Shown: piece by piece, positions 19,980-63,966 of the stretch
How the letters are laid out: every line of letters begins with the position of its first letter
Numbering within the stretch: the first letter of the stretch is position 1
Translations under genes and position numbers: made by a program
Notes under the pieces: generated by a model
What the model was told of the DNA's origin: nothing
Databases searched by the model: none
Seen by the model: the letters and a program-made list of their open reading frames with translations, nothing else
Assembly: GCA_949130485.1 (NCBI GenBank)
Contig: OX422190.1
Span: 2,150,781 to 2,214,780 of the forward strand
DNA length: 64,000 bases
DNA from: Agelas oroides
Lineage: Eukaryota; Porifera; Demospongiae; Agelasida; Agelasidae
Reading direction: 5' to 3'

Positions 19980-20036
19980 CAGTAAGACAAACAGTTACAC
20001 ATGCACTTGTGTAACACACACACACACACACACACA

Positions 20037-29380: not shown

Positions 29381-31559
29381 ATGGCAGCCAAGGAGTACGA
29401 GTATGAAAAGACCTTGGTACGTATGTAGGGAAGTAGGAAAGTTGAAACAAGGGTGGTAAATTCACCCGGAGGGGGATCGATGTGATGAACAGAATGGGCT
29501 ATTCGAAATTCATAAGGAAACACTCAACTGTTGACGTACTTAGCCCTAGCATCATGGGTTAGATATTAGTATACTGAAGTTTGCAAGAGAATACGCAGAT
29601 ATTCTAGCAACCCCTCTCAGTTCTTGTCGAGACTGATGCTGTGTACCTGCCCCCTCCCCCCTTCCCACTCCACACTGGTATATGCATTACACATTCCACA
29701 CACACTCGCGCACACATTCAACACTAACACAGATGTATGGTCACTATTCGGAGCTGCAGCAGTTCGCACGCGAGTTTGCAGCTTCTCGCGAGCAGCGGCC
29801 ACAGCATGAGCCTCCTAACATTGAGGAGGCCAGGAGGAGAAAGAAAGCAGCATGGAGTGAGTGGGGTGGGGATCAATCATCATTGTTATTTCACGGAGCG
29901 ATGGTACTCCGGTGTTGAGCTTTGTCCGAACAGCATGAAATTCTTTTGCAGTAGAGCAACAGCGGCCGAACAACGTCAGCCCAGTAAAGCAGAAAGCGAC
30001 CGAACAGCGTCGGATCCTCCGCGCACGTGCGGCCGAATGGCGTCGGACCACTCCGCAGCCGAGCAGAAGGAGGCTGAACAGCGTCGGATCTCCTCACAGT
30101 AGAGCAGAGGCGGCCGGACAGCGTCGGATCACTCCGCATACAGTAGAACTGCCGAACTGCTGCCGAACGATCTGCAGTATAGAGCGAAAATTGCGCGCGT
30201 CTGACCTCTCCGCAGTGTCGGACCTTTCGTCCGAAATGCGAACAGCATCGGACATTGAGTCGCCGCAGTGCAGTAGAGCGAGAAGCGTCCGCTTTCCCCT
30301 CTACCATGGTCGTTTTTCCGCTCGCTTTCCGCTCGCTTTCCGCTCGCTTTCCGCTCTATCATAGATATTGAAAATCCAAACGCCACTATCACAACTGCCG
30401 CCACTTTCCACTCCGCTGTGCCCACTCGAATGTCAGAATCCAGCACTATAAATAGTACTCTGCAGTGGAGTGCCCTTCTGGGCCACAATGTAGAGCAATC
30501 TTCCTTCATGCCTTCCTTTCTCCTTCCTTTCTCCTTCCTCCTTCCATCTCTCCTTCCTTCTCTCCTTCCCTCTCTCCCCTCTCTCTTTCCCTCTCTCCTT
30601 CCTCCTTCCCTCTCTCCTTCCTCTATCCTTCCTCCCTCCTTCCTTCATCCTCCTCCCCTCTCTTTCTCTTTCCCTGAATGATCCATTCTTCTTCCGTTTC
30701 AGGGATATGGAACTGGTTATCTAACAACATTTTGCCCTACATTGTTGACTGGCTGTTTGTGCTAATTCTTGGGATATTGATGGCTGCTCTTAGTTTTCTT
30801 ATCGATTATGTCATTGAAAAGATTGCCCAAGGTAGGGCTGTACGGGTGTCCCCTATCTACATGTATGTAGCCTTCACTTTGTCCTATACACTGTGATGAT
30901 TGATTGCTACCTCTCTCCATCTCCCTCCCTCCCTCCCTCCCTCCCTCCCTCCCTCCCTCCCTCCCTCCCTCCCTTCCTTCCTCCTTCCCTCCCTTCCTCT
31001 TCCTCCTCTCCCTCCCAGCCCATGTTGTCCTGAGTCTACAGCTTTCTTCTCATCTTCACGTCGTGGTACAGTATCTCTTGTGGGTCGGATTTTCCCTCCT
31101 CTTTGTCCTGTTCTCCATCGGCTTTGTTCAAGTGGTCTCCATCCATGCAATCGGTTAGACACTCAGATGTGTCCAGTACCTAGCTTTGTTCCCAAGCCTC
31201 CCCGCTTGTAGTATGTCACAGTGGAAGAGGAAGGCCTGGAAGATTTTACCATATGAGGGGCATCAATGTCGACCAAGGTAGACGGAGGGAGGTTGTGGTG
31301 TCTGCAATTGAGGAGGTGCATTTACCTAGACACAGAGGGCAGAGGGTTCAATAAATTCTTGCAACATATCTTGTAGTGTCTATCTAAGAGTCTGCGACAT
31401 TCACAGAGTGTTTATGTAGAAGCCAACTGACATAACTTCATTTTGAAGAAGTGCAGATTATCAGTCATGTTAAACTCTATCATACATGTAACCACACACA
31501 CACACACACACACACGCACACACACCACACGCACACACACCACACACACACACACTCAC

Positions 31560-31624
<65 letters not shown>

Positions 31625-34600
31625 CTGAAGGCTCTGGTATCCCTGAAATGAAGACTGTTCTCAGAGGCATCTCCCTCACTGACTACCTCACCTTCAGAAC
31701 TTTTGTATCAAAGTCTGTGAGTACCGACATGCTGCCTCCTCCTCTTCCTCTCCCACCCCTCCTTCTTCCCTTCCCCTCCTCCTCCTCCTCCTCCTCCTCC
31801 TCCTCCTCCTCCTTCTTCTATTTTTCTTTCTCCTTCCCCTTTCTCTCCCTTTCTGCTTCTCCTTCCACTTTTCTTCCATCTTCCTCCTTCTCCTCTCCCT
31901 CCTCTTCCTTCTTCCTCTTTTCTTCCTCTTCCTTCTCTTCTTCCTCCTTCCCCTCTCCCCCTCCCTCACTTCAGCTTTGTTTCTAATTTTACAGGTGGCT
32001 CTGGTAACTGCAGTTGGAAGCGGCTTGCCAATTGGAAAAGAGGTGAGGCCATTTTTGTCCTGAAGTGCATTACTCAACAAGGAAACATCACACACACACT
32101 CTGTCTCTCTCTCACACAGGGCCCATTTGTTCATCTTTCCAGTATCATTGCACACATAATGAGCAAGTGTGTCACTACCATCAATAGAGTTTATGCTGTA
32201 AGTGGGTGTGGTCAGATAGTCATGTGACCCTACATAGCAACAGTATATATGTAGATTTAGTAAGGATGCTCAGTATGCATTTTGAAATTTGCTTTTTCTC
32301 TTATTTAGAAAGACCTCAGGCAGTCATGTGACTTGACATGGCGACAACATAGTAGCTAATGCATATTGAATTTGCTTTTTTCTCTAATTTAGAACGAAGC
32401 TCATAACAATGAACTGTTGGCTGCAGCATGTGCAGTGGGTGTGTCCTGCAACTTTGCTGCCCCAATAGGAGGTGAGTTCCAAAGAGTGAACCCCTGTTGT
32501 TTACCACTCCCTTCGCCCTCCAACTCCCTCACTCTCTACTCCCTTCACTCTCCACTCTCTTTGCCCTCCAACTCCCTCACTCTCCACTCCCTTCACTCTC
32601 CACCTCCAACTCCCTCGCTTTCCGCTGCTCACATGCTTCACCCATTCTCCCCTCTTCTATACCTTCTCTCACCTTCACCCTCTCACTTTTCACCCTCACA
32701 CTCTATGCACCTTAATTCAACCCCTACTCCCCTCCCTCCCTTCCTCCCTCACTTCTTCCTCCCTCCCCCTCACTCCTTCCCTCACTCCCTCCCTCCCTCC
32801 TTTCCCCCTCCCTCCTTCCCCCCTCCCTCCTTCCCCCCTCCCTCCTTCCCTCATCCCTCCTTCCCTCCTTCCTTCCCTCCTTCCTTTCTTCCTCTCCTCC
32901 CTCCTTCCCCCCTCCCCCTTTCCCACCTTTTCTTTCAATATTTTCAGGTGTGCTGTTCAGTATAGAAGTAACAGCAACGTATTTTGCCGTGCGCAACTAC
33001 TGGCGTGGATTCTTTGGCGCGGTGTGTGGTGCGTTTCTCTTTCGTCTTGCAGCAGTGTGGTTCAAGTCAGAAGAGACAATAACTGCCTTGTTCAAGACAT
33101 CCTTCCGACCTGATTTTCCTTTCGACTTGCAAGAGCTGATCGCTTTCGCATCCATTGGGTGAGAAGCTTATGACATACATGAACAATCAACGAACCACAT
33201 CTCCCTAAAAAATAGGCCTAGATGTTACGTAAAGTCACCTACTGCACAGGACACATTTTGGTCAATGCTAGGCCTCATCAGCTGCACTGGGGTGACCGGG
33301 AAATGGGGCTTGCTATCTCATGCACAAAATGCAGTCGGGGGAGGCTGGGCTTACGTGTACATGTGTTGTTATTGTCTTGTGTGTACATGTACTACTGTAG
33401 ATTGGTAATTTTTGTTGTTAAAATATCTCTGTTAGTGCGATGGATGATGCAAATTGGAGTACATGGATGCACTCCACCGTGGAACTGTCAAGCAATAATT
33501 AACTCAAAGGTTACCTGGTACGAACCAGTGTACGACGTTCGCATACATGATGTTAAAGTTTTTTTTTGGCGCATACTGTACAGCTTCTCACACGCCCAGC
33601 TACCAGAACCTGCAATGGGATGTGGGAAGCCATGGGAACAATTACCATGGAGGCTCTCCCCATTCAAAACGATGGGGAGAGCCTGGTACATTTCATCGTG
33701 TGTGTGACATCACGGGTTTGCAGCGGGAAAAGCATGGGAATAAGGCTACTTTAGCCTTGTACCCAGTCCTTCTCCCCTTCTCTTGAGTGGAGTCTTTGAA
33801 GGAGACTAGTTTCGAGCCTCATCCTCAGGCCACACCTGCAAGATATAATCTGGGAGTGGCCTGGGAATGAGCTAACTAGTTGCCACATGTTTGTATGCTG
33901 GTACATAGTTATACAGAAGAAAGTTCTGATAAACTTGTTACATGTGACGTCTAGAGCTGTTGCAAGTCTCAAAAGGCTTGCCTTTGTCACAGGGTTTCAT
34001 ACAGGATTTTGAGTTGAGGGGGGGAAACAGGATGGTAGCAGGATGATAGTAGGGTGCGAAAGCATACTCACACACGCATAAGTGTGCGTGCCTACTAGGG
34101 GGGTTTAGGGGCATGCCCCCCCCCCCCCCCCCCAGGAAAATTTTGAATTTAGATCCTCTCAGATTGCTTCTGACGCAATCTAGGACAAACTTTCCAAACA
34201 TTTTGATGACACATACTTATGTCCAATAACATGTAAAATTAAATAGCTAATATTGATAGCACCACAATAATAACCATACTCAATTTCAAGATTTCTGGGG
34301 GGGGGGGAGAATTCCAGGCCCCCCCCCCCCCCCTCTGTATGAAACCCTGTTTGATGGTTGATTTTCTTCTCCTCTTCTCACAGTGTTGCTGCCGGGTTTG
34401 GTGGTGCTTTCTTTGTCTGGTGTCACCGGATGTATGTCCTTGGGCGAAGAAAATATCGGAACATCACTAAACTATTGCGTCTGGACAGCCAGTGAGGATT
34501 GCAGCTGCTCCACCTGTAGTGATTTAGTCTTTGTCTCCAGACCCCACCCAAGAGGAGAGGGTCTGTTGACATTCAGCAAATTCCTCTTGGGTGGGGTCTG

Positions 34601-34641
34601 TGAAGGAGACTAGTTGCCCCTTTTTTTGTGCGCCATCATGC

Positions 34642-34699
<58 letters not shown>

Positions 34700-37600
34700 T
34701 GCACACAACACACACACACAACACACACAACACACACACACACACACTCACACACACACGTACACACTACCTTTCTCCTCTTCTCCAAGTATCTTCATCT
34801 TTCCGGCTCTTGTGACCATTTTGTTTACTACCCTCACCTTCCCGCCAGGGACAGGGCAGTTTATGGCAGGAGAGGTCAGTTTGCATGAGTTACATTATGC
34901 CACTATCTGTTACTTACAAGTTCCACATCAGGAGAAGTCAGGAGGGTAGATAACTAACGTATAGCGGGAAACTTTCGAGGGAGAGAAAAGTTTCGCGGTT
35001 TTGTAGCTATTCACCTTCCACGAAAATCTTCTTTTCTGCCAATTCGTGAAAGTTTTCTCCCTCGAAAGTTTCCCGCTGTACAGTATTACATGTACAATGT
35101 TCTCCCCTCCCTTCTCCCTGCCTTTCCGCCCTCCTCCCTCTCTCTCCTCCACCCTTTTCTCCTTATGCTCCTCTTCCCCCTCCTTCCTGCCCTCTCCTCC
35201 TCGTCTTCCTCTTCCCCGTCTTCTTCATCCTCTCTCTCCTCCCTGCCTTCTTCCTCCTCCCTCTCCTCTGTGCCCTCCTCCTCTTCTTCCTCTCTCTCCA
35301 TCCTGCTTTCTTTCTCCTCTCCCTCCTCCCTGCCTTCTTCCTCCTCTCCCTCCTCCTCCTCTTCTTCCTCCTCTCTTCCCTCTTCCTCCTCCCTTCCCTC
35401 TCCTTCCTCCCTTCCCTCTCCCTCCTCTCTGCCCTCTCCCTCCTCCCTGCCCCCTTCCCTTCCTCCAGCTGACACAGCGAGGTGCAATAGACCAACTGTT
35501 CTCCAATAAGCCATGGATCAATCTCCCCTCTTCCTCCGAGGTGCTGGAACTCCCAGAGGACAGTGAGGACTACCGGATTGTGCGGCAGTGGGGGACACCC
35601 AATATCTTTGTGACCCTAATTCTGTACATTCTTGTCAGGGTGAGAGGAGGGAGAATGGGGATTGGGAGAGGGAGAGGGAGAGGGAAGGACAGGGGTGAGA
35701 AAGAGAGAAGTGGGAGGGGGAACGGGAGAGGAGGAGAAGAGGCGAGAGGAGGAAATCATTTTTCTTTGCTGGTTTGAACTGGATAACTTCATTTGATTGC
35801 TCATACAATGTACATCCATGAAGACGCTCCTTCTCCCCTTCCTCTCCCCTCCCTCTCCCCTTCCTCTCCCCTCCCTCTTCCCTCCCTCTCCCTTCCCTCT
35901 TCCCTCCCTCTTCCCTCCCTCTTCCCTCCCTCTTCCCTCCCTCTTCCCTCCCTCTTCCCTCCCTCTTCCCTCCCTCTCTACTCCCTTCTGCAGTTTTTCT
36001 TTACCGCCATATCTATCTCCCTCCCGATTCCCTCCGGAGTCTACTTTCCTGTCTTTGTCATTGGTGAGTTCCTCCACGGTTCCAATAGGAGCACATCACC
36101 GGCATGATGTACAGACAATAACACAACTTGTGTGATAAAATCTCTCCATTTTAACATAAACTGGAGGGAGGAAAGGTCTGGGAACAATGCTAGTAGAGTA
36201 AAGACGCTCCCTGTTGGTCTTTTCCTGCCTACGTTTTATGTCCATCGTACGCAGGTGCTGCTTTTGGTCGTCTGATGGGAGAGACCATGGCTACCTGGTT
36301 TCCTCATGGTATCAATGGCAACCCAGTGTTGCCTGGAGGATACGCAGTTGTGGGTGAGTTGTGTGCATGTAAGAGGCTGTGGTATAGCCTCATTCCCAGG
36401 CCTTCCCACCATCCAGTTTTTGATTGCTTACAGTATGCAAAAGCAGAGGAGGAAGGCCTGGTCCATTTTATCACGTGAGCAATGTCGATCTCTACCAAAG
36501 CAGACAGAGAGAAGGTGGGAGTCTCCAACCGAAAGAGTGCATTTTGCAGTGGTGTTCTTTGTCCTGAACAATGAGCGATGTGTTTTCTGTTTTGCGAACA
36601 TTTGGAACTGCAGCACTTGGTTAGGCTCTACAAAAAAGGCCTCAATTTCATTTTTTCGGTTGGGACCCCTTCCCCCGTCTGTCTACCTAGGTTGATGTCA
36701 TTCACATGATAAAGTAGATCAGGCTTTCCCGTTCATTTATGCATACTTTAAGCGATCAAAAGCTGGATGATGGGAAGGCCTGGGAACGAGGCTGGCCATG
36801 GCAGATGCATTCTTGCCACGTGCAGTTATACGTGGCTGTATTCCTTTTGTGTCACCTTTGACCATACGTGTACATATACCTCCCTACCTCTCCATGTATA
36901 CCTCCCTCCATCCTTCCATCCATCCTTTTCTCTCTCTCTCTCTCCTTCTCTCCTTATCTCCCTCTCTTCCTCCTCCTCTCCCTCTCTCCCTCTCTTCCTC
37001 CTCCTCTCCCTCTCTCCATCTCTTCCTCTCTCCCTCTCTTCCTCTTCCTCTTCCTCTCCCTCTGCCTCTCTCCCTCTCTCCCTCTCTCCCTCTCTCCCTC
37101 TCTCCCTCTCTTCCTCTTCCTCTCCCTCTCCCTCTCTCCCTCTCTCTCTCTCTCCCTCCCTCCACCTACCAGGAGCTGCTGCCATGGCGGGTTCAGTGAC
37201 CCACACCATCTCCACCTCTGTCATCGTGTTTGAGCTAACAGGACAGATCACACACATCCTGCCCGTCATGGTAACCAAATTGAATAAAATAACTGCGCGA
37301 ACAGCAACCTGATCATGACTTCTTTTGCATTAGTTAGCAATCCCTGTCCCCCAGTCACCCCAGTGTACAATATGTTAGTTGGTGAACCCTGTATCAGCCA
37401 AAATGTGTATCCTGTGTGTTAAGTGACTCTGCACAACATGTACACTGTAGGTCTGCTTTTCAGAAAGCATGTACAGGCTGTAATCAGTAGTCAGATAAAG
37501 ACTTCCTCTTTCCTTTTCTCTTCCTCCCTTTCTCTCTCCTTCTCTTCCTTTCCTCCCCTCCCAGATTGCTGTCCTGATTGCCAACGCCGTATCCAGCTTG

Positions 37601-40600
37601 CTCCAGCCCTCGTTCTACGACAGCATCATCCTGTTGAAGAAACTCTCCTACCTCCCAGACCTCAAACCCAACACGTCAGTCCAAATATTCAGAGATTCAT
37701 GTGCAGTGGAGTTTTTACCATCTTCCTGTTTTCTAAAAGCTTTGTTTCATAAAAATTTAATTTTGCTCTGTACCCTCACCACATGAGGGTCACTCAACAC
37801 TTCACTAAAATTAAGCTTCTGGCATCCTTGTGCCACGACTTGAACCATAAAGGATACATGTACGATGTTTCTCTAGCCTTGTTCCCTGGCTTTCCCTGCC
37901 TATCAATTTTGATCACTTAGAGTGTGCAGTGTACAGTATACTGTATATGGGGACTGAAGGTGGGAAAGACCAGAGAACAAGGCTAGTGTGTGGCCATCTG
38001 AACAACTGCCATTTGCTGAAATTTTATTCTGCAAGAAAGTTTCCATGAAATTTTGTCCCATAAAAATTTCCTCCTGGGAACGAGGCTAAGTATTTTTGCC
38101 TTGTACAATTACTGACCAAGGTATTAATAACATATATGTGGATGTATGCACAAGATGTAGTTCCAACTGCAGGCACTACGACCTATTTGTGACGGACATC
38201 ATGAGACGAAACCTTGTCTATCTCACCTACCGCTCAACCTACCTGGACCTGAAACAGCTACTGCTCACATCCAACCATGCTTCCTATCCCCTCGTGGATG
38301 CCCCTGGTAGGTGTGGCAATCACATGACAGTCACATGACAATCACATGAGTGACACAGAAGAACAAAATTTGTTCATACACTGTAACCCTACCAGTATAT
38401 GTAACTGCTCTTGCGACATATTTGGAAGCTTGCACTGTCATATCATGGTTACATCAAGAGTGCATAAGAACAGGTGGCTGGGGTAAGAGTGTGTAACTCC
38501 GTAAAAATTGAAACTGGGTTGGAATTTGCCACCAGTACTAAAAATAGTAATACGTACTGTGCATGCTGCGTAGACATAAGTCATTGTTGCTCAACACGTG
38601 ACTGGGTGTTCTATTTTTTGTACGGTTAAACAATTTTGACCGGACTACAAGCTTCTATTGGAGTTACACACTCTTACTCAAGCCGCCCGTTCTTATGTGT
38701 ATGTTTTAGTGACTCCTCTCTCAACTTTAAAATTTATGGCCTATAGTCTCATGTCCAGACCCCACCCACTAAGCAACTATTGAGCTATAGCTGAATGCTC
38801 TTGGTACGTAAATGTGTAGTGATGAATTGCTCACATGACAGTCACGTGATAGCCATGTCTCTGTCTTCTCTCCCTTTTCACTTTTCAGATTCTCGCATTC
38901 TGATTGGTTCACTTTCACGGCACAATCTGAACGCCATGCTGGACGATCACATGAAGGGTGTCCATAAACACGCCCAGCAAATTCGGGACCAGTCACAACT
39001 GTATGTGTAAACACCACTGGTTGCCTATCAATTGATAAACTACGTACCTAGACGTTTAGCATTTTTGTTACTTGTAAGATTAAAATGGAGAAGGCCTACC
39101 CTAGCCTCACTTCCAGTCCTCCACCATAGCTATCATTGCTTGCAGTACGAATAACGTGTTATTCGTACTGCAAGCGACGATAGCTGTGGTGGAGGACTGG
39201 AAACAAGGCTGTGCCTCCCCTTGTTCCCAGGCCTCTCCCCTCCCCTCCAAGTTTTTGATCACTTGCAGTGTGCATATACCGTACCGGAGGCAGGGAAGGC
39301 CTGAGAATGAGACTAGAGGAGTTGGAATCTGTCGTGTGCAGTGACGTACACTCATTCATGTGTCTTGTGGCTATCTGAAGACATACTTGGCACATTCCCA
39401 AAACACTGTATTTCAGTCTGCATGCAAGGCCAGTAGCTGAGTGCCAAGAAAGGGTCATCTAGGTGAAAGACCATTTTCTACCATGTCTCCCGTCCTGCAA
39501 AGAACAAAGGTTGAAGGCCTTTTGCATGGGGCTGTGTTATTGTAACCACGTGACCAGTGTTCTGATATTTTATCGCTTGTGTCGTGTTTGTTGCTAGGTG
39601 GAGTGACAACCACGTGACCAGTGTTCTGATATTTTATCGCTTGTGTCATGTTTGTTGCTAGGTGGAGTGACAACCATGTGACCAGTGTTCTGATATTTTA
39701 TTGCTTGTGTCATGTTTGTTGCTAGGCGGAGTGACAACCACGTGACCAGTGTTCTGATATTTTATTGCTTGTGTCATGTTTGTTGCTAGGCGGAGTGACA
39801 ACCACGTGACCAGTGTTCTGATATTTTATTGCTTGTGTCATGTTTGTTGCTAGGCGGAGTGACAACCACGTGACCAGTGTTCTGATATTTTATCGCTTGT
39901 GTCATGTTTGTTGCTAGGCGGAGTGACAACCACGTGACCAGTGTTCTGATATTTTATCGCTTGTGTCATGTTTGTTGCTAGGCGGAGTGACAACCACGTG
40001 ACCAGTGTTCTGATATTTTATCGCTTGTGTCATGTTTGTTGCTAGGCGGAGTGACAACCACGTGACCAGTGTTCTGATATTTTATCGCTTGTGTCATGTT
40101 TGTTGCTAGGCGGAGTGACAACCACGTGACCAGTGTTCTGATATTTTATCGCTTGTGTCATGTTTGTTGCTAGGCGGAGTGACAACCACGTGACCAGTGT
40201 TCTGATATTTTATCGCTTGTGTCATGTTTGTTGCTAGGCGGAGTGACAACCACGTGACCAGTGTTCTGATATTTTATCGCTTGTGTCATGTTTGTTGCTA
40301 GGCGGAGTGACAACCACGTGACCAGTGTTCTGATATTTTATCGCTTGTGTCATGTTTGTTGCTAGGCGGAGTGACAACCACGTGACCAGTGTTCTGATAT
40401 TTTATCGCTTGTGTCATGTTTGTTGCTAGGCGGAGTGACAACCACGTGACCAGTGTTCTGATATTTTATCGCTTGTGTCATGTTTGTTGCTAGGCGGAGT
40501 GACAACCACGTGACCAGTGTTCTGATATTTTATCGCTTGTGTCATGTTTGTTGCTAGGCGGAGTGACAACCACGTGACCAGTGTTCTGATATTTTATCGC

Positions 40601-43600
40601 TTGTGTCATGTTTGTTGCTAGGCGGAGTGACAACCACGTGACCAGTGTTCTGATATTTTATCGCTTGTGTCATGTTTGTTGCTAGGCGGAGTGACAACCA
40701 CGTGACCAGTGTTCTGATATTTTATCGCTTGTGTCATGTTTGTTGCTAGGCGGAGTGACAACCACGTGACCAGTGTTCTGATATTTTATCGCTTGTGTCA
40801 TGTTTGTTGCTAGGCGGAGTGACAACCACGTGACCAGTGTTCTGATATTTTATCGCTTGTGTCATGTTTGTTGCTAGGCGGAGTGACAACCACGTGACCA
40901 GTGTTCTGATATTTTATCGCTTGTGTCATGTTTGTTGCTAGGCGGAGTGACAACCACGTGACCAGTGTTCTGATATTTTATCGCTTGTGTCATGTTTGTT
41001 GCTAGGCGGAGTGACAACCACGTGACCAGTGTTCTGATATTTTATCGCTTGTGTCATGTTTGTTGCTAGGCGGAGTGACAACCACGTGACCAGTGTTCTG
41101 ATATTTTATTGCTTGTGTCATGTTTGTTGCTAGGCGGAGTGACAACCACGTGACCAGTGTTCTGATATTTTATCGCTTGTGTCATGTTTGTTGCTAGGCG
41201 GAGTGACAACCATGTGACCAGTGTTCTGATATTTTATTGCTTGTGTCATGTTTGTTGCTAGGCGGAGTGACAACCACGTGACCAGTGTTCTGATATTTTA
41301 TCGCTTGTGTCATGTTTGTTGCTAGGCGGAGTGACAACCATGTGACCAGTGTTCTGATATTTTATCGCTTGTGTCATGTTTGTTGCTAGGCGGAGTGACA
41401 ACCATGTGACCAGTGTTCTGATATTTTATTGCTTGTGTCATGTTTGTTGCTAGGCGGAGTGACAGTGAGGACGAGACAAAGTCAGAACAACCGTCCTCAC
41501 CAAAGCGCACCATCATGGTATGTGACACCCACGTTGTCTTGGTGATACCAGCTGAGTTGTAAGATCGAGTTGATCAATTCATGGCCTAAGATCCCTCTTT
41601 TCTCCCCCTATCTCTTTCCTTCCTTTCCCCCACCTGCACATCCTCTCTCCTTCCTCTCTCCCTCCTCCCTTCTTCTTCCTCTCTGTAGTCCCCAGACCGC
41701 ACTCCCTCACCTGGTGGAGTTGAAATGCTAAAAAGGATAACTTCCAGTGAGTTCGCGGTAGCCTTTATTTACCACCAGTGCTCAAGGGGGACCTGAATGT
41801 TGAAAACTTAGCTAACATTGACATCCTGGCAATGGTGTCTGCACAGTGGCCTCATTCCCAGTCCTCATCACAGCTGCATGTATCGTTGCTTGCAGTACGA
41901 GTAGTGCGGAGAAGGCCTGGTGAGAATTATTACGTGATGTATACCGACATAATACCTTAACTTCAATATTTTTCACTATGTCACGAGGTAAATGCACAAA
42001 GCTGACTGGAGCTATCCACGCTATTCGTACTGCAAAGCGACAATATCTGCTTAGTGGGTGACTCTTTAGAACATCTAGTCCTGTTTGACAAGATGTGGCT
42101 CATTAAGTGAATGTGCTTGACGTACTGTATGTACAATTCTTCTTTTCGCAGTGCCTCATTCCTTGGCAAAAATCTTTGGAGCTCAGGATGAGCCAGATTC
42201 TGCCGTAAGTTTACCCTCCCTACAACATCTGTGAATACTGGTTCTTTACCTCAGTGTTGTTTTAGTTGAATGTTTGGACTCATAGTTTAGTTTTAGGCTA
42301 CCGGTTCAAATTGTTAGTTTTAGTTTTAATTACTACATCTAGAAAGGGTTAGTATCGGTACTTTTAGTTGTAGTTAACTACCATTTTTGGGTGATTTCAA
42401 CCTGGTTTAGCTGCTGTTTTTGGACTAAGACAACATCAATTTTAGTTTTAGTTTTAAGGTTTATGCCTAACTAAAATGCATTTTAGTTTCAGGTTTGGTT
42501 AACTAAAACAACACTGCTTTACCTATTTCCTAACTTCTCATTTATAGGAATTGGAAGGCACTCATACTGAAGAGGTAAGAAATTAATTTTTTCCTTAAGA
42601 ATGAGTTCTTTCTCTTAAATAGATCACTTAATAATTTCCCTTTTTATTGATCTTAGGCTCTGGAAGAGTTGAGAGAGGAACTATTATCTCAGACCATCGA
42701 CTTCAAGAAGGGGCTCATTGACCCCGCCCCTTTCCAAGTAGTAGAAAGAACATCACTATACAAGGTACGTAAGCACAGAGATAGTGGTGCAGGGCCGAGA
42801 GTGGAATCAATCACCTGTACGAACACCCTGGGTACAAGGCTATGTTATGCCTGTGTATCTTTTTTTTTTTTCCATACTGGAACAAAGAGCTCCGTAGACA
42901 ATTCTAGACATGCCCTCAGCTTAGCCATACAGCTAGCTAACACACGGATTCCAAATCCACTTACCACGAAAATTAAAACTGAGAAAATTTCTAAAACCCG
43001 AATTTTGGCCTGTTTTGTGAAAATTTGTACCTGCAAAAATTACCAACCATATGGTATGTTGTACACTGTACAAAAGTATATCTACATGTAGTGATGTGCT
43101 TAGTTAGGTAGTTAGCCTCGTCCTTAAGCTCATCACGGAAAAGCAAAGAAGCCTTTTACAAGAATTTCCTTATGTGAGTGATGTCAAAGGTAGAAGGAAC
43201 TAGTTATGTTAACACAATGGCCCTCAGAATTGACAGCAAGAAAGGTGAATGTATCCACGTGAAACATGGCATATTTGTTCTGCAAATTGTTTCCATTACT
43301 CGTGCTCATGTGCAACAGCTTTTTTTGCTTGATTGTCTGCAAGTGACAAAATGCTGGACAGGGGCCTGGGAATGAAACTATACCGTAGATCTGGAAATTT
43401 TCATGTTGTAAAATTTTCGTATTTTTTGTGTAAAAATATTTTCGTGGTCTTGGATACCCATGACAATTTTTTGATGGTGTTAAATCAATACTACGTTCCC
43501 AGGTTTAGTGATCTGGAACGAGACTACGCAAGCCAAGAAAACGTAGAGTACGAACAGCTTGCTGCGTTCATGGCTACGCAGCTATTGGCAAACTCTACTC

Positions 43601-44047
43601 ACGTGCGAAAGAGAGCCGAAGAAAGCAGTAGGCATGTACTGTGGCAGTAAAGACAGACGATTTACTTAGTGCTGTATAGATTACATAGTCCAAAGAGGGA
43701 TACGTTATGTAGAATACTTTTATCATTCCCTTTCGACATGCACTAATACATACCATTTCTCTCCCAAATAGATCCACAGTTTATTCTCCATTCTGGCGTT
43801 GTCTCACACTTATGTGACTAGTATCGGTAGACTGGTGGGCGTGGTCACTCTACAAGATGTAAGATCAGCTTGTGTCTACAACATGCAAGAATTAGGACAG
43901 GTAATGAAATATACTTGCTCTCCTTCACCCACTCAGCTGACAGATGCAATAGAGGGTAAGAAGAAGCCTCCTTCAAGAGACGAGGCAGACACTGCGACAC
44001 TAGAGATGGTGCAGATGACAGATAGTGAAATAGAAAACCCATTGTGA
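29381..44047 (+). CDS. ClC-2-type voltage-gated chloride channel
   Basis: Twenty-four exons join in phase to 832 aa: 29381-29416, 29733-29856, 30703-30831, 31019-31153, 31631-31716, 31995-32042, 32120-32197, 32393-32471, 32948-33158, 34384-34491, 34790-34874, 35469-35639, 35994-36063, 36255-36353, 37173-37270, 37565-37674, 38173-38306, 38889-39000, 41454-41517, 41689-41746, 42152-42204, 42548-42574, 42657-42764 and 43772-44047. It has the N-terminal TLMYG motif, GSGIPE (142-147) and GKEGP (184-188, with the gating glutamate). The third filter stretch reads [15 protein letters not shown] (444-458). Two CBS domains follow (about 556-620 and 706-785; [14 protein letters not shown]). These are hallmarks of the CLC-1/2/K plasma-membrane branch. 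A linker of small exons joins the CBS domains. Key oddities are Tyr for Phe in the GxFxP filter motif and a 1.9-kb satellite in intron 18. Confidence 0.96.
29945..30265. repeat. Degenerate GCCGAACAGCGTCGGATC repeat
   Basis: About ten imperfect units of around 20-35 bp with GGCCGAACAGCGTCGGA and GCAGTAGAGC words, in chloride-channel intron 2. GC-rich and unlike its AT-rich surroundings. Confidence 0.8.
30496..31016. repeat. Pyrimidine-rich tracts flanking exon 30703-30831
   Basis: TTCC/CTCC tracts at 30496-30665 and 30913-31016, both ending at splice acceptors of the chloride-channel gene. Comparable tracts precede the acceptors at 31995, 32948, 35469, 35994 and 37173. Confidence 0.9.
31494..31622. 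repeat. (CA)n microsatellite before the GSGIPE exon
   Basis: The CA run ends eight bases before the acceptor at 31630. That exon therefore has a purine/pyrimidine alternating tract in place of a normal pyrimidine tract. Confidence 0.95.
33814..33874. mobile_element. 9-bp-TSD foldback element
   Basis: GAGCCTCATCCTCAGGCCAC and GTGGCCTGGGAATGAGCTA pair. Flanks ACTAGTTTC (33805-33813) and ACTAGTTGC (33875-33883) match at 8 of 9. In chloride-channel intron 9, beside further GTTCCCAGGC-family hairpins at 33590-33800. Confidence 0.75.
33997..34350. mobile_element. MITE with GGGTTTCATACAG-type ends, copy 2
   Basis: Bounded by AGGGTTTCATACAGG and CTGTATGAAACCCT, inverse of 8047-8371. Poly-G/poly-C tracts differ in length from copy 1. 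Ends 33 bp upstream of the acceptor at 34383. Confidence 0.85.
34530..34612. mobile_element. Foldback of the TAGTCT family without clear duplication
   Basis: TAGTCTTTGTCTCCAGACCC and its inverse end GGTCTGTGAAGGAGACTA pair, with CCCACCCAAGAGG against CCTCTTGGGTGGG. The 9-bp flanks match poorly. It starts about 35 bp after the donor at 34491. Confidence 0.65.
34645..34761. repeat. (CA)n microsatellite
   Basis: CA run interrupted by single bases, in the intron before exon 34790-34874. Confidence 0.95.
34955..35090. mobile_element. Short MITE, ends TATAGCGGGAAACTTTCGAG
   Basis: The left arm TATAGCGGGAAACTTTCGAG pairs with the right arm CTCGAAAGTTTCCCGCTGTA; an internal CGAAA-rich body separates them. 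Chloride-channel intron 11. Confidence 0.7.
36386..36793. mobile_element. Foldback-family element with long spacer
   Basis: TAGCCTCATTCCCAGGCCTT and the inverse AAGGCCTGGGAACGAGGCT bound 408 bp. Inner CCAGTTTTTGATTGC words recur inverted. Flanking 9-mers match only partly (about 6 of 9). Chloride-channel intron 14. Confidence 0.65.
38460..38697. mobile_element. MITE, TAAGAACGGG family, best-preserved copy
   Basis: Ends CATAAGAACAGGTGGC and GCCGCCCGTTCTTATG pair, and continue with AAGAGTGTGTAACTCC and GGAGTTACACACTCTT. The body matches 740-1005, partly in inverse orientation. Chloride-channel intron 17. Confidence 0.82.
39105..39210. mobile_element. Foldback element, TAGCCTCA type
   Basis: TAGCCTCACTTCCAGTCCTC pairs with GAGGACTGGAAACAAGGCT, with inner TTGCAGTACGAATAACGTG arms. 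Flanking 9-mers match about 7 of 9. Immediately followed by a second family member at 39210-39315. Confidence 0.7.
39538..41465. repeat. 64-bp satellite containing a reiterated splice acceptor
   Basis: About 30 head-to-tail 64-bp units, nearly identical in the centre and slightly diverged at both ends. Each unit contains TGTTTGTTGCTAG followed by GCGGAGTGACAACCACGTGA. The last unit's GTTGCTAG is the in-phase acceptor of channel exon 41454-41517, and its GCGGAGTGACA forms the exon's first codons. Each unit thus repeats the authentic 3' splice site and exon start, plus a CCACGTGACC E-box (CATGTG in a few edge units). Confidence 0.97.
42255..42520. repeat. TAGTTTTAGTTTTA-rich degenerate repeat
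   Basis: Loose repetition of TTTTAGTTTTA and TAACTAAAA words in chloride-channel intron 21. No element boundary seen. Confidence 0.6.
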
Positions 44048-44220: not shown

Positions 44221-45510
44221 TTAATTGTCTAGTATTACAACCTTGTTCACTTGAAACTTGAGGCAATCATTAATCAGATATTGACAGTCTTTGCTAGCAT
44301 TGTAGGCAAGCCTTTCATGAGGAATAAACTCATGATAACCCCACTCAGGTCCATGTTGCTGTGGTTCTTGCACTTGAGCAATGCACACCATAAAGTCGAT
44401 GTCATTAGATGAATAGTCACCACTCTCAATTAGTGGTCCTTCACAATGGTTTGCATTATTCCTCTGATTAAGGAGTTGCACTGTTACTTCTCCATGGAAT
44501 GGCCACTTCAAGTTATCATCATACTCACCTGGCATCATATTTAGATACACAGACAGGTGGGTGTCTTCCCCAGCACCACAACCATTAGCATAAACTGAGA
44601 TACACATTTTGTAGCCCCCGATGTGAGAATAGAATGGAGGGCTGAGCCATATATCTTCACTCTTTTTGTGTTGCTCAAAGGAAGTCATGGTGAAGCTTGG
44701 AGGAGGAATGAACACTGTAGACTTAGTGTGTTGCTGCAAAGTCATAAGTAGGTGGACCTGGGCAGTAAGTGCCTCAATTTGCTTTTTTTGTAGTTTTGCA
44801 TGTCTTGCCACCATCTGAAGGTGAGCTTTCACACTACTCTCCACATGGGACTGCACCTCCTGACGTTGTAGTTTCTCCTCACAGCCAGCATAGTCAAACT
44901 CACATTGAATGATCTCCAGTGGACAGACCTCCAAGTGGTTTGGGAGGTGCTGACGTTCAATGCCTCTTTGTCCACATTTGTTTGGACACTCCAGAGGATG
45001 TCTTTTACAATCAGGCCAGTGGTCTTTGGTAATTTCCTGGTAAGTGGCTCTGTAGGCACAGTGCATACATACGAATTGACGCTTGAGACAATCGTTCGCT
45101 TTATGCCATTCCAAGTCACAGCGCTGAACACGCCTACCACACAAATTAGGGCATGCTACCACTACGTACAGGCACTCTCCCGCTACCGAGCCGTTGTTCA
45201 GATGGTGATCCAAACGGCCTAATTCTCCCACCCACCCACATCCCACACCCTTCTTTGGACAACGAACTTTGAGTTCCTTCACTTTACGTTTGAAGAATTT
45301 ATCAGGAACCGCCTGAAGTGGTTGTTTACAAAGGGGACACGGTTTCTGATCTCGCCGTAGTTGGTCGGCGGCTTCTTGCGAGAGGTGATTCCCACAACAG
45401 ACTGTCAGGAAGGGCTCTCGGAGTACATCGAGCGTTACAGGACAAAGGAAATCTTCAGAAGGTTTCTCGACGAAGTGATAGTCAGGAAGCTCTTGCAGAG
45501 CGAACGACAT
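44221..45510 (-). CDS. TRAF-like protein 1 (RING-like, TRAF zinc fingers, MATH), intronless
   Basis: Single-exon 429-aa ORF. Order: RING/U-box-like segment (about 20-65, LCPVTLDVL to CPLC), TRAF-type zinc fingers (about 80-225; repeated C/H clusters such as CPNLCG and CEFDYAGC), a short coiled coil (about 228-260) and a C-terminal MATH/TRAF domain (about 272-425; FTMTSF, PPFYSHIGGYKMC, NDCLKF). TRAF proteins couple receptors to NF-kB/JNK signalling through trimeric MATH domains and RING E3 activity. Here the RING core lacks several usual ligands: CPVT replaces CPxC and no H-x2-C follows. E3 activity is therefore doubtful, or the fold is U-box-like. The first ATG fits paralogue alignment. It is the first of a same-strand cluster and convergent with the chloride channel. 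Confidence 0.93.
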   Translation of the reverse strand: MSFALQELPDYHFVEKPSEDFLCPVTLDVLREPFLTVCCGNHLSQEAADQLRRDQKPCPLCKQPLQAVPDKFFKRKVKELKVRCPKKGVGCGWVGELGRLDHHLNNGSVAGECLYVVVACPNLCGRRVQRCDLEWHKANDCLKRQFVCMHCAYRATYQEITKDHWPDCKRHPLECPNKCGQRGIERQHLPNHLEVCPLEIIQCEFDYAGCEEKLQRQEVQSHVESSVKAHLQMVARHAKLQKKQIEALTAQVHLLMTLQQHTKSTVFIPPPSFTMTSFEQHKKSEDIWLSPPFYSHIGGYKMCISVYANGCGAGEDTHLSVYLNMMPGEYDDNLKWPFHGEVTVQLLNQRNNANHCEGPLIESGDYSSNDIDFMVCIAQVQEPQQHGPEWGYHEFIPHERLAYNASKDCQYLINDCLKFQVNKVVILDN

Positions 45511-45852
45511 CGCATGAGGGGTATACGAATGAAGTTATCAAACCAGGAAACACGCAATGAATATAAACTCTGCAGTCATTAGCCTTAGGTTTGAAGGTCA
45601 GCCTTGCGAGCCAACACCTAGCTATTCTTCACATGTAATTAAAAGAAGAGCTAAGGTTAGGCTGTCAGACATTACATCCGATCCTATTCAGTTTGCATGC
45701 AGGAGATGATCGTGATTGCAACTCCACGCTATCCACATATGAATGCTAATTCAGCACATATGCCCTGTGACAGTAATATATGGAGGTGAAGACCTGGGAA
45801 TTTCAGTGTTATCACCCTGCACTATGAGGGAATGCACATTGCACTACACTAG
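45511..45852. other. Spacer between TRAF-like genes 1 and 2
   Basis: 341 bp that must hold the gene 1 promoter and gene 2 terminator. Nothing specific recognised. Confidence 0.6.
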
Positions 45853-47265
45853 CTACAGTTTGTCAAATACTACAACTTTGTTCACTTGAAACTTGAGGCA
45901 GTCATTCTTCAGATATTGACAGTCTTTGCCAGCACTGTAGGCAAGCCCTCCATGAGGAATAAAAGTGTCGTGACCCCATGCAAGCCCACGTTCCTGTGTC
46001 TCTTCCACTCGCGCAACACACTCCATAAAGTGATCAAACGAATAGTCAGCGCCCTCAACTAATGCTTTTTCACGATGGTTTTCGTTTCCTCTTTGGTTGA
46101 GGAGCTGTACTGTCACTTCCCCATGAAACGGCCACTTCAGGCTATCGTCATATTCACCTGGCATCATGTGAAGATACACTGCTACGTGTGTACCTTTACC
46201 AATATCGGACCCATTGGCCTTGACACTGATACACATTTTGTAGCCCCCAATGTGAGAGTAGAATGGAGGGCTGAACCATCGGTCCTCATCCTTTTTGTGC
46301 TGCTTAAAATTAGTCATGGTGAAGACAGGAGGAGGAGTAAATACTTGAAGTGTAGTTACCAGTTGGTGGACATGAGCAGCAAGTGTCTCAATTTGCGCGT
46401 GCATCTCCTGTTGTTCCTTTTGCACATGCTCAGTTTGCTTCTCTTGAAGTGTAGACGACAGCTGGTGAACTTGATCAATAAGTGTGTCAATTTGCTTATC
46501 CTGTTTCTCAATTCGCTTCTCTTGTTGCTCAATTCGCATCTCTTGCAGTTTCGCAATTCTTGCCACCATCTGAAGGTGAGCTTTCACACTACTCTCCACA
46601 TGGGACTGCATCTCTTGACGTTGTACCTTTTCCTTACAGCCAGCATAGTCAAACTCGCAGTCAATGATCTGCAGTGGACAGACCTCCAGATGGTTTGGGA
46701 GGTCCTGACGTTCAATGCTTCCTTCTCCGCAATCATTTGGACACTCCAGAGGATATTTACAACATTTAGGCCAGTGATCTTCGGAGATTTCCTGGTATGT
46801 GGCTTCGTAGGCACAGTGCTTACAGGCGAACTGACGCTTGGGACAATCGTTTTCTTTATGCCCTACCAAGTCACGACGAAGGACACGCCCATCACACAAA
46901 TTGGGACACGCTACCTCGACGTATTGACAATCTCCCGCTACAGCACCATCGTTCAGATGCTGATCCAAGCTGCCTAATTCACCCACCCACCCACATCCTG
47001 CGCCTTTCTTTGGACAACAAACTTTGAGCTCCTTCACTCTGCGTTTGAAGAATTTATCCGGAACCGCCTGAAGTGGTTGTTTACAAAGGGGACACGGCTT
47101 CTGATTTCCCTGTAGTTGATCGGCGGCTTCTTGCGAGAGGTGGTTTCCACAGCAGACTGTCAGGAAGGGCTCTCGGAGTACCTCGAGCGTTACAGGACAA
47201 AGGAAATCTTCCGAAAGCTTCTCCACAAAGTCATAGTCATAAAGCTCTTGAGAAGCCGAAGACAT
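45853..47265 (-). CDS. TRAF-like protein 2, extended coiled coil
   Basis: Single-exon ORF of 470 aa from the ATG at 47265, which aligns with the paralogues' N-termini; an upstream in-frame ATG at 47319 would add 18 residues. Domain order is as in copy 1, with the same degenerate RING-like core and MATH domain. The coiled coil is longer, with heptad-like repeats (IEQQEKRIEKQDKQIDTL). This suggests repeat expansion of the oligomerisation stalk. No introns or frameshifts. Confidence 0.93.
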   Translation of the reverse strand: MSSASQELYDYDFVEKLSEDFLCPVTLEVLREPFLTVCCGNHLSQEAADQLQGNQKPCPLCKQPLQAVPDKFFKRRVKELKVCCPKKGAGCGWVGELGSLDQHLNDGAVAGDCQYVEVACPNLCDGRVLRRDLVGHKENDCPKRQFACKHCAYEATYQEISEDHWPKCCKYPLECPNDCGEGSIERQDLPNHLEVCPLQIIDCEFDYAGCKEKVQRQEMQSHVESSVKAHLQMVARIAKLQEMRIEQQEKRIEKQDKQIDTLIDQVHQLSSTLQEKQTEHVQKEQQEMHAQIETLAAHVHQLVTTLQVFTPPPVFTMTNFKQHKKDEDRWFSPPFYSHIGGYKMCISVKANGSDIGKGTHVAVYLHMMPGEYDDSLKWPFHGEVTVQLLNQRGNENHREKALVEGADYSFDHFMECVARVEETQERGLAWGHDTFIPHGGLAYSAGKDCQYLKNDCLKFQVNKVVVFDKL

Positions 47266-47466
47266 TGTGCTGGGTCTGGTAAGTAGTTTCACAAGTACAA
47301 AATTCTTCAGCCCACGCACAAATTCTTGTATAGATGTTTACGTGATAGATGAAAATGATATTAACAGTTTGTGTAGTAGTTTTCACTGCATGGCTTCCAT
47401 TCAGTCGCCAAAGTTTCCACTATTGTGCTGATAGCATACAAGAACACTCTGCATGTGACTATATAC

Positions 47467-51218: not shown

Positions 51219-52649
51219 TTACAAGTCAGAAAGTACAACAATTTTTTTAACTTGAAACTTGAGGCAGTCATTCATCAGATATTGACAGTTTTTGCCAGCA
51301 CTGTAGGTAAGCCTTTCATGAGAAATAAACTCAGAATAACCCCACCCAGGCCCATGTTGCTTTACCCCTTTTACTTGAGAAAAACACTCAATACAGTTGT
51401 CAGATGAATAGTAGTCATCCCGTATTAATTGTTTTTCATAATGATCCACATTCCGGCCCACATTCCTTCCTTGATTAAGGAGTTGTACTGTTACTTCTCC
51501 ATGGAATGGCCATTTCAGATCATCGTCATATTCACCTGGCATCATGTGAAGATACACAGATACATGAGTACCTTCACCAGTATCGTTCCCATTGGCAAAC
51601 ACACTGATACACATCTTGTAGCCCCCAATGTGAGAGTAGAATGGAGGGCTGAACCATTCATCATCCTTCTTCTTGTGCTGCTTAAAGTTAGTCATGGTGA
51701 AGACAGGAGGAGGAGGTTGAAGTGTACTTTCCAGTAGTTGGACTTGAGTAAGAAATGCTCCCATTTGCTTCTTCTGTTGCTCAATTCGTTTCTCTTGTAA
51801 TTTTGCATGTGCTGCAACCAACTGCAGGTGAGCTTTTACACTACTGTCCACATGTGACTGCATCTTTTGCCGTTTTACCTTCTCCTTACAGCCAGCATAG
51901 TCAAACTCACATTCAATGATCTGCAGTTGACAGACATCCAGGTGGTCTGGGAGGTGCTGACGTTCAATGCCACTTTCTCCACAATCGTTTGGACACTCCA
52001 GAGGATATTTGTCACATTTAGGCAAGTGGTCTTCGGTAATTTCCTGGTATGTGGCTTTATAGGCACAGTGCCTACATTTGAACTGACGCTCGGGACAATG
52101 ATTTGCTGTATGCCCTTCCAAGTCACCACGCTGAACACACTCACCACACAAATTAGGGCATGCTACCACTATGTACCGGCACTCGCCCGCTATCGATCCG
52201 TTGCTTAGATGCTGATCCAAGTTGCCGAAATTCCCCACCCACCCACATCCCACACCTTTCTTTGGACAACGAACCTTGAGCTCCCTCACTTTGCGTTCGA
52301 AATATTTATCGGGAACCGCCTGAAGTGGCTGTTTGCAAAGGGGACACGGTTTCTGTTCTCCCTGTAGTTGGTCGGCAGCTTCCTTCGAGAGGTGGTTCCC
52401 ACAACAGACTGTCAGGTAGGGCTCTCGGAGCACCTCGAGCGTAACGGGACAGAAAAAATCTTCCGAAGGTTTTTCGACAAAGTCGTAGTCGGGGAGCTCT
52501 TCACTACTAATACTCATGAGATCTTCTTCACTGTCTTGAAATTGCAAAGTGGATGACATGTTCATGCCAGGCAGGGTAGGGACGAATGCCAGCCGTCCAC
52601 GCCCCCCAGCGGAGAACGTCTGGTGGTGAATTCTTGTCACGAAGGCCAA
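51219..52649 (-). CDS. TRAF-like protein 3, intronless
   Basis: Single-exon ORF of 476 aa from the first ATG. Methionines at residues 29, 31 and 45 are alternatives, and paralogue alignment favours residue 31 or 45. Architecture and degenerate RING match copies 1, 2 and 4. The MATH domain is closest to copy 4 and the fragment at 49760 (shared DHYEKQLIRDD and KNCQYLMNDCLKFQVKK). An extra GRNV duplication lies in the MATH loop. It is adjacent to a broken PPP1R7 3' copy, mirroring the arrangement at copy 4. Confidence 0.92.
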   Translation of the reverse strand: MAFVTRIHHQTFSAGGRGRLAFVPTLPGMNMSSTLQFQDSEEDLMSISSEELPDYDFVEKPSEDFFCPVTLEVLREPYLTVCCGNHLSKEAADQLQGEQKPCPLCKQPLQAVPDKYFERKVRELKVRCPKKGVGCGWVGNFGNLDQHLSNGSIAGECRYIVVACPNLCGECVQRGDLEGHTANHCPERQFKCRHCAYKATYQEITEDHLPKCDKYPLECPNDCGESGIERQHLPDHLDVCQLQIIECEFDYAGCKEKVKRQKMQSHVDSSVKAHLQLVAAHAKLQEKRIEQQKKQMGAFLTQVQLLESTLQPPPPVFTMTNFKQHKKKDDEWFSPPFYSHIGGYKMCISVFANGNDTGEGTHVSVYLHMMPGEYDDDLKWPFHGEVTVQLLNQGRNVGRNVDHYEKQLIRDDYYSSDNCIECFSQVKGVKQHGPGWGYSEFISHERLTYSAGKNCQYLMNDCLKFQVKKIVVLSDL

Positions 52650-52846
52650 GAGCGGATAAGAACGGGCGGCTGGAGTAAGAGCGTGTAGAACACCCGGTCA
52701 CGTGCTTAGCAAGAAGCCTTATGTCTATGCGCTATGCGCGCAGCGCAGCATGCCCTGTACTGTACTAGCCTCATGTACGTACGAGGTTAGCCCTGGCCCT
52801 GTACGTGTTACGAAGTACAGGCGGTAAATTCTGACCGGTTTCAGAG
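52650..52846. mobile_element. MITE, TAAGAACGGG family, truncated at a pseudo-exon
   Basis: The left end GGATAAGAACGGGCGGCT and the body match the family. The right end is lost where the pseudo-copy of the last PPP1R7 exon begins, so the element abuts or replaced the end of that exon. Confidence 0.6.
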
Positions 52847-54528: not shown

Positions 54529-55815
54529 TTACAACTCAGAAAGTACAACAATTTTTTTAACTTGAAACTTGAGGCAGTCATTCATCAGATATTGACAGTT
54601 TTTGCCAGCACTGTAGGTAAGTTCTTTGTGAGAAATAAACTTAAAACAACCCCATCCAGGTCCATGTTGCTTTACCCCTTGCACTTGAGCAAAACACTCT
54701 TTACAGTTATCAGATGAATAGTCGTCATCCCGTATTAATTGTTTTTCATAATGATCCACCTTCCTCCCTTGATTGAGGAGCTGTACTGTTACTTCTCCAT
54801 GGAATGGCCATTTCAGTTTGTCATCATATTCACCTGCCATCATGTGAAGATACACAGATACATAGTCGACATTATGGCCAGTAACATCGACACTGATACA
54901 AAGTTTGTAGCCCCCAATGTGTGAGTAGAATGGAGGGCTGAACCATTGGTCCTTGTCCTTCTTGTGCTGCTTATAGTTGGTCATGGTGAAGACAGGAGGA
55001 GGAGGTTGAAGTGTACTTGTCAGTTGAGTAAGAAGTGCTCCTATTTGTTTTTCTTGTTGCTCAATTCGTTTCTCTTGTAGTTTGGCATGTGCTGCAACCA
55101 ACTGCAGGTGAGCATTTACACTACTATCCACATGTGACTGCATCTTTTGCCGTTTTACCTTCTCCTTGCAGCCAGCATAGTCAAACTCACATTTAATGAC
55201 CTCCAGTGGACAGTCATGCAGGTGGTTTTGGAGGTGCTGACGCTCAATGCCGATTTCTCCACAATCATTTGGACACTCCAGGGGATATTTCTTACATTTA
55301 GGCCAGTGGTCTTTGACTATTTCCTGGTAAGTGGCTTCATAGGTGCAGTGCCTACATTTGAATTGACGTTTGTGACAATGATTTGCTGTATGCCCTTCCA
55401 AGTCACGACGCTGAACACGCTCACCACACAAATTAGGGCATGCTACCACTACGTACCGGCATTCTCCCCCTACCGAGCCGTTGCTCAGGTGCTGATCCAA
55501 GTTGCCGAAATTCCCCGCCCACCCGCATCCTGCGCCTTTCTCTGGACAACGAACCTTGAGGTCCCACACTTTGCGTTGGAAATATTTATCAGGAACCGCC
55601 TGAAGTGGCTGTTTACAAAGGGGACACGGTTTCTGATCTCGCTGTAGTTGGTTGGCGGCTTCTTGCGAGAGGTGATTCCCACAACAGACTGTCAGGAAGG
55701 GCTCTTGGAGCACCTCTAACGTTACGGGACAGAAAAAATCTTCCGAAGGCTTTTCGACAAAGTCGTAGTCGTAGTCGGGTAGCTCTTCACTATCCTGAAG
55801 CCGCAAAGTGGCCAT
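54529..55815 (-). CDS. TRAF-like protein 4, intronless
   Basis: Single-exon 428-aa ORF with the same order: RING/U-box-like core (about 20-65), TRAF zinc fingers, a short coiled coil (EKRIEQQEKQIGALLTQL) and MATH (about 275-428). It is most similar to copy 3. The shared 3' flank (54240-54528 with 49490-49740 and 50938-51218) shows block duplication. It is transcribed toward the other TRAF genes and follows PPP1R7 on the same strand, with 590 bp between them. Confidence 0.93.
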   Translation of the reverse strand: MATLRLQDSEELPDYDYDFVEKPSEDFFCPVTLEVLQEPFLTVCCGNHLSQEAANQLQRDQKPCPLCKQPLQAVPDKYFQRKVWDLKVRCPEKGAGCGWAGNFGNLDQHLSNGSVGGECRYVVVACPNLCGERVQRRDLEGHTANHCHKRQFKCRHCTYEATYQEIVKDHWPKCKKYPLECPNDCGEIGIERQHLQNHLHDCPLEVIKCEFDYAGCKEKVKRQKMQSHVDSSVNAHLQLVAAHAKLQEKRIEQQEKQIGALLTQLTSTLQPPPPVFTMTNYKQHKKDKDQWFSPPFYSHIGGYKLCISVDVTGHNVDYVSVYLHMMAGEYDDKLKWPFHGEVTVQLLNQGRKVDHYEKQLIRDDDYSSDNCKECFAQVQGVKQHGPGWGCFKFISHKELTYSAGKNCQYLMNDCLKFQVKKIVVLSEL

Positions 55816-56405
55816 GGACGAATGAGCTTACATGTACATACAGGGCCTGGGAGGGCGTAGGACTAGTCTGTTTGGCCTGTCATGAAGCAAACGGGCCCCC
55901 GAAGTAGGTGGTCCCCGGGGATAATCTACTTCGGAGTAAATGGTCCACCTCTGAAGTAAATTATCTCCCTTCTTGCAGTCACTGTCCTGTGTATCCTACC
56001 TGCCATGGCTATCGTCCCAACCAATGCTTCAACAAGTGAAGAGAGTGTTCTAAGGGGACACTTCCAAACTAAATTAAGGTCATTATCCGGGAACAAATTA
56101 TAACTATTATATTTGCACGCTCCTATGGACCTATACTTTTGCACGTGAGCTTGTCTTACCCCCGGTACTGTGTACCTTATAGGTAAAAGGTAGTCTCGCG
56201 TAGCCTCCGGCAGAGTGCCTGTCCTATAGGGCATTTCCAATTAGTAACACAGACTTAACTGGTAGCTAGCTATATTAATAAGCATGTGTAAGCTACCAGT
56301 GCCCCCATACTGTTGCTATATGGCAATGGCATGTTAGATACTATGGCTACAGAACTTTTGCTACTATTAATCACAGTGTATACCATGGGTACATGAGAGA
56401 TGTTA
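55816..56405. other. Gap between TRAF-like gene 4 and PPP1R7
   Basis: 590 bp. Contains a small palindromic stretch at 55893-55975 (GAAGTAGGTGG and CCACCTCTGAAGTA) but no gene. It should hold the TRAF-like 4 promoter. Confidence 0.5.

Positions 56406-61147: not shown

Positions 61148-63966
<2,819 letters not shown>

Follow-up and report, generated by a model that had tools for sequence, protein, structure and literature searches.

A 64-bp tandem array repeating a predicted intron-exon boundary in a ClC-2-type chloride channel gene of Agelas oroides

How a splice acceptor is picked out when 29 copies of its core lie directly upstream is the question raised by a ClC-2-type chloride channel gene of Agelas oroides. 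The gene lies in a stretch of 64,000 nucleotides (GenBank assembly GCA_949130485.1, contig OX422190.1, 2,150,781 to 2,214,780 of the forward strand), here called the window and numbered from its first letter, and its intron 18 is predicted to end in a 64-bp tandem array that runs on into exon 19. By its anatomy the array is a well-formed 'mirage', a rare, minisatellite-like repetition of an intron-exon boundary described in lancelets, of high copy number and in a new lineage. It is likely that this mirage-type minisatellite is spliced authentically at its last copy, with the 29 upstream copies serving as passive decoys. The most likely view of the array is that of a near-neutral minisatellite, probably a passenger.

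Features of the locus (a slash marks a splice junction):
29381 to 44047, plus strand: ClC-2-type chloride channel gene with 24 exons, 811 amino acids and no internal stop (hand-built predicted model)
38889 to 39000, plus strand: exon 18, end of the first CBS domain, ending after two codon bases, donor ACT/GTATGT (gene model)
39544 to 41463, plus strand: tandem array, 30 x 64 bp (Tandem Repeats Finder, TRF, and phased units)
39864 to 41079, plus strand: 19 consecutive identical units, numbers 6 to 24 (phased units)
41400 to 41463, plus strand: last unit, with the predicted real acceptor (TAG, last base 41453) and 10 bases of exon start (phased units, gene model)
41454 to 41517, plus strand: exon 19, 64 nt, donor ATG/GTATGT (gene model, candidate ranking)
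41689 to 41746, plus strand: exon 20, the next coding exon (gene model)

Anatomy and setting of the array

When phased into units, the array at 39544-41463 on the plus strand comprises 30.0 units and 1920 bases. TRF calls it at 39544-41464 with a period of 64, a score of 3751, 99% matches and 30.0 copies; the edge is uncertain to within one base, since 41464 matches the unit too. A preliminary description of this DNA had reported a 64-bp satellite of about 30 copies inside a chloride-channel gene, which is borne out, although the start it gave (39538) has to be moved to 39544. The array is the longest found by TRF in the 64-kb window, the runner-up measuring 696 bp. The acceptor core GTTTGTTGCTAG is present in 30 of the 30 units. 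According to the predicted gene model, and depending on its predicted acceptor, each unit consists of 53-54 nt of intron end and 10-11 nt of exon start, the array reaching 11 nt into exon 19. The motif CTGAT, which resembles the branch-site consensus, sits in invariant columns of the unit, 33 nt upstream of the exon 19 junction; words of this type are found 15-50 nt upstream of 10 of the gene's 23 acceptors, that of exon 19 included. RNA folding of the last four units gave a z of -2.29 with an empty centroid, and 6 of 200 shuffles were as stable.

The units are almost uniform. The consensus is matched exactly by 21 of the 30, namely units 6-24 consecutively, plus 26 and 28. The 13 differences from it are spread over nine units (1-5, 25, 27, 29 and 30) and are confined to columns 6, 31, 41 and 56. 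In three of these columns a CpG cytosine has changed to T (the chance of at least three in four being 0.0018), and column 41, with G in unit 1 only, is likewise a CpG/CpA difference. Every difference between units is therefore of the kind that is expected from the decay of methylated CpG, with methylation itself putative. The last unit departs from the consensus in two columns and is identical to units 3 and 27.

The host gene was modelled by hand. GT/AG sites were chosen by reading frame and by similarity to ClC proteins, an earlier set of boundaries having contained internal stops, so the intact frame of the model is partly a product of site choice. For the 811-residue product, the best solved relative found by phmmer is ClC-2 (E 5.1e-219, over query stretches 4-654 and 682-774), and Pfam reports Voltage_CLC (PF00654, E 8.3e-73) together with one CBS domain at 562-614 (E 1.9e-7). 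The second of the two stretches aligned to ClC-2 covers the other CBS region (69.6 bits), for which Pfam gave no match. The predicted product thus has the ClC pore and the two CBS domains that mark a ClC-2-type channel. Exon 19 corresponds to residues 638-659 of the model (22 residues if the codon split with exon 18 is counted), in the linker between the CBS regions. The preliminary description was right in placing exon 41454-41517 in phase with exon 38889-39000 and in deriving its start from the last unit, which contains the predicted acceptor and 10-11 bases of the exon. Splicing exon 18 directly to exon 20 leads to a stop.

The array appears to be peculiar to this locus. Counts from the unit and flank searches of the 259-Mb assembly are lower bounds. 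BLAST with the unit found at least 30 places in the assembly, all inside the array, and a pattern search allowing up to two mismatches found at least 31, of which 30 are in the array and one, with two mismatches, is on contig C23. Related copies elsewhere in the genome, of the sort that mark a dispersed satellite or a transposable element, were not found in these unit searches of the assembly. The finding of the unit at this locus only makes a dispersed satellite or mobile element unlikely, and the array is read as having been amplified locally from the intron-exon boundary of the channel gene itself. A 64-bp block made up of the last 53-54 nt of intron 18 and the opening 10-11 nt of exon 19 would first have been duplicated in tandem; slippage or unequal exchange may then have amplified it to 30 copies, with recent homogenisation of the core.

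The exon length of 64 nt, which equals that of the unit and had been remarked upon earlier, is a coincidence. Beyond the bases that it shares with the array, exon 19 shows no detectable similarity to the unit (as good a score was reached by 227 of 500 shuffles), and a derivation of this remainder from the unit was rejected.

The choice among thirty acceptors

When acceptor and donor scores are added up, exon 19 comes first among 253 open, frame-consistent candidates of 12-400 nt in the interval from exon 18 to exon 20. The authentic splice is predicted at the last copy, and the other 29 would be passive decoys. Because the last copy has the sequence of copies 3 and 27, it differs from the rest by its downstream context and not by its own sequence: it alone has a good donor within 64 nt, and this donor behind it is the reason for supposing, through exon definition, that the last copy alone is used. 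The donor of exon 19 scores 7.2, the 23 donors of the gene ranging from -0.6 to 10.4 when scored leave-one-out, and the best donor-like site of the array, CAT/GTTTGT, reaches 2.5. GTGACC, which had been proposed as a donor within the unit, is a poor candidate at 1.1-1.3. An AG/GT in units 1 and 2 (TAG/GTGGAG), at which recursive splicing is conceivable, has a donor score of 0.9.

The first upstream acceptor copy is at 39597. Were exon 18 spliced to any of the 29 upstream copies, the resulting tail would in 29 of 29 cases end at the acceptor TAG of the next copy. It reads L(R/W)...(R/C)LCHVCC before the stop and has four variants, given by 22, 5, 1 and 1 copies. The early stop had previously been placed at TTCTGA; the frame there is CTG ATA, which holds no stop. 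Mistaken use of an upstream copy would thus meet a stop about 20 codons on and lose the second CBS domain, and the transcript would presumably be degraded.

Several results weigh against the last copy as the site of the splice. With a matrix built from the gene's other 22 acceptors (matrix 1), a small set influenced by introns very rich in C, the exon 19 acceptor scores -2.0, and 21 of the 22 others score higher in a leave-one-out range of -5.4 to 17.5. A second matrix (matrix 2), built from the 13 acceptors that have no array within 45 nt, gives -0.7, with 12 of the 13 others higher. As many as 26.6% of the 4198 plus-strand AGs in the window score as well as the exon 19 acceptor, and four AGs close to the beginning of intron 18 outscore it: those at 39252 (15.1), 39117 (8.7), 39231 (7.9) and 39146 (3.6). 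The acceptor is weak for this gene, which counts against calling it a strong functional site. Of the earlier claim that about 30 functional 3' splice sites are present, the number stands, with 29 upstream copies sharing the core, but the word 'functional' does not, given a site that falls below 21 of 22. The lead of exon 19 over the next candidate, 39146-39188, is small (5.2 vs 4.3), and two in-frame AGs lie just downstream at 41459 and 41465, with scores of only -13.0 and -15.9. Use of the acceptor at 41453 is a prediction, and the single-copy ancestor is a postulate. No counterpart of exon 19 was seen, by eye, in three other, partial ClC loci (C8:807455-812878, C8:823035-830340 and C5:10396057-10399627), which by eye resemble other ClC types, and a search with the protein segment that runs from the close of the first CBS domain almost to the C-terminus matched five places, all within this gene; there is consequently no paralogue able to fix the start of exon 19.

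Among the alternatives, the one that survives best, though an unlikely one, is a regulatory bank of decoys, in which the upstream copies are rivals for the donor of exon 18 and the copy number sets the amount of full-length channel. It is favoured by the position of the 29 copies, which carry the same acceptor core nearer to that donor, from 39597 on; by the near-uniform truncated product that any of them would give (one tail from 22 of 29, near variants from 5, 1 and 1); and by the weakness of the exon 19 acceptor itself. However, decoys and last copy show no differing treatment, the variation being limited to the same four columns, three of them CpG, and the last copy is matched by copies 3 and 27. 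Normal splicing has moreover been reported as intact with lancelet mirages (PMC3087553, PMC3902484). Such a bank of decoys corresponds to the modulation of splicing between the CBS domains that the preliminary description had proposed.

It is improbable, too, that the satellite is purely intronic, with the true acceptor at 41465 (CAG/TG) or 41459, or with exon 19 not being the exon used. Both downstream sites keep the frame, repeats near acceptors are common in this gene, and the lead of exon 19 is small. Nevertheless, 41465 and 41459 score -15.9 and -13.0 against -2.0 at 41453, and matrix 2 places the three in the same order.

Very little probability is given to the array as a store of units that can each stand in for exon 19, or of poison acceptors with a near-uniform truncated product, whose length tunes the linker between the CBS domains or the amount of channel. 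A 52-nt mini-exon can indeed be read in the units, from TAG/GCGGAG to CAT/GTTTGT, which would replace the acidic linker and leave the reading frame between exons 18 and 20 intact; its donor is weak (2.5).

More doubtful still is a role at the DNA level, in which 26 CACGTG E-boxes, most of them 64 bp apart, would form a binding array for bHLH proteins in the intron. The window holds 48 CACGTG, 26 of them within the array, where 10.25 are expected in the whole window, but the motif exceeds expectation outside the array as well (22), 4 of the 30 units have lost it by C-to-T change, and copying of a unit multiplies any motif within it. An assembly artefact with a wrong copy number is just as hard to credit, given that variant units are found towards either end of the array and that each flank has one full-length place in the single assembly examined.

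Splicing at the last copy past passive decoys is therefore favoured as likely, and the parts of it observed directly are the anatomy, the single locus and the identical core.

Other repeats and known mirages

In 10 of the gene's 23 introns (2, 3, 4, 5, 8, 10, 11, 12, 14 and 18; 29417-43936) a TRF array ends no more than 45 nt from the acceptor. When the 14 arrays were placed at random, a mean of 2.9 fell near acceptors, and ten was reached in none of 20000 trials; three arrays lie near donors, vs 2.9 from random placement. Of the ten acceptor-side arrays, seven are pyrimidine-rich (96-100%) and two are CA repeats; the tenth, the 64-bp array, is the only one to extend across the junction. This excess of acceptor-side repeats is strong in this gene and is not established beyond it. 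Pyrimidine runs of at least 50 nt within 600 nt occur upstream at 7 and downstream at 4 of 30 loci from two families, a count that includes one ABC row (L078), an incomplete locus with a negative match length; the purine control at the same 30 loci gave 6 and 4. By family, the runs were found at 6 of 10 other ClC places upstream and 3 of 10 downstream (several of these places overlap), and at 1 of 20 and 1 of 20 ABC-transporter places.

Arrays with a period of at least 15 reach at most 447 bp in a partial sample of 40 other loci, which covers 129 kb at about 3 kb per locus. Outside this sample, a minisatellite with a 23-bp unit adjoins another ClC gene (L025, G000:C8 at about 829132-830340); it has 52.6 copies with 97% matches and measures 1209 bp or more, being cut off where the sequence examined there ends. 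Long minisatellites are thus not unique to the channel gene. Long (GT)n arrays were also observed at, or within a few bases of, donor-like sites at about 2156-2259 (an exon encoding an SRCR domain by Pfam, GTGAGT followed by GT) and at 63783-63964 (ATAATG/GTGTGT, in a gene without a Pfam match).

The closest known systems are the mirages of lancelets, tandem repeats of intron-exon boundaries that resemble minisatellites and in many cases contain splice signals; the examples include Adh3, the globins BflGb6 and BflGb9, TnC and PGBD5 (PMC3087553, PMC3902484). The mirage-like repeats of PGBD5 are reported in the second of these, where Adh and TnC are cited (PMC3902484). The interior of such a mirage is reported as homogenised, the cluster boundary being excluded from this, and the units of the Adh3 mirage measure 10-72 bp (PMC3087553, PMC3902484). 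The channel-gene array shares with them the head-to-tail arrangement, a unit that covers a predicted intron-exon boundary and splice signals within the repeats, weak here by the matrix. It also shares with a lancelet mirage the divergence of units towards the edges around an identical core (PMC3087553). It differs in the gene concerned and in its 30 copies of 64 bp, BflGb6 having 6 and 3 copies of 150-160 bp. Splicing and instability have been studied in lancelet mirages. Reverse transcription PCR suggests normal splicing despite the lancelet mirages, and the authors add that the repeats could be cryptic sites (PMC3087553). The array of the channel gene is probably passive.

The known examples are from cephalochordates, and no report of a mirage outside them was found in the portion of the open-licence full-text literature covered. 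The highest identity to the Antp homeodomain among 10 genome matches is 49%, so the genome is not that of a lancelet; going by its homeodomains, the animal does not seem to be a typical bilaterian either. It is thus the distribution that differs here, not the definition. Turri is said to have described in 1995 a minisatellite that multiplies splice donors in IFI6 (6-16); here acceptors are multiplied instead.

Internal tandem repeats in human genes, which form new introns via cryptic splice sites, likewise bring splice sites into play; they lie inside exons of recent paralogues, whereas the array of the channel gene is mostly intronic (PMC2812944). The variable number tandem repeat of ABCA7 is, like the present one, an intronic tandem array, and is reported to affect splicing (PMC5954066).

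Intron 18 also contains the following:
39102 to 39210, plus strand: inverted repeat resembling a miniature inverted-repeat transposable element (many genome matches)
The flank search in which it came up gave at least 85 matches, its own locus among them, on scoring 40 out of 623 candidates. On the minus strand, four long open frames that resemble one another lie between 44224 and 55827 (44224-45534, 45856-47337, 51222-52697 and 54532-55827); the Pfam scan covered the first of them, which has zf-TRAF and MATH domains. An 81/27-bp tandem repeat at 20563-20853 lies inside a minus-strand open frame, 19933-21543, that has no Pfam match.

Significance

Each copy in the array resembles a splice acceptor that could misdirect the message of the channel gene. 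If the last copy is cleanly used, the locus would be a natural experiment on exon definition, showing how the spliceosome chooses one acceptor out of 30 that are nearly identical. If the reading given here is true, boundary-duplicating minisatellites, which have been proposed to give rise to new introns in lancelets, would be no lancelet peculiarity.

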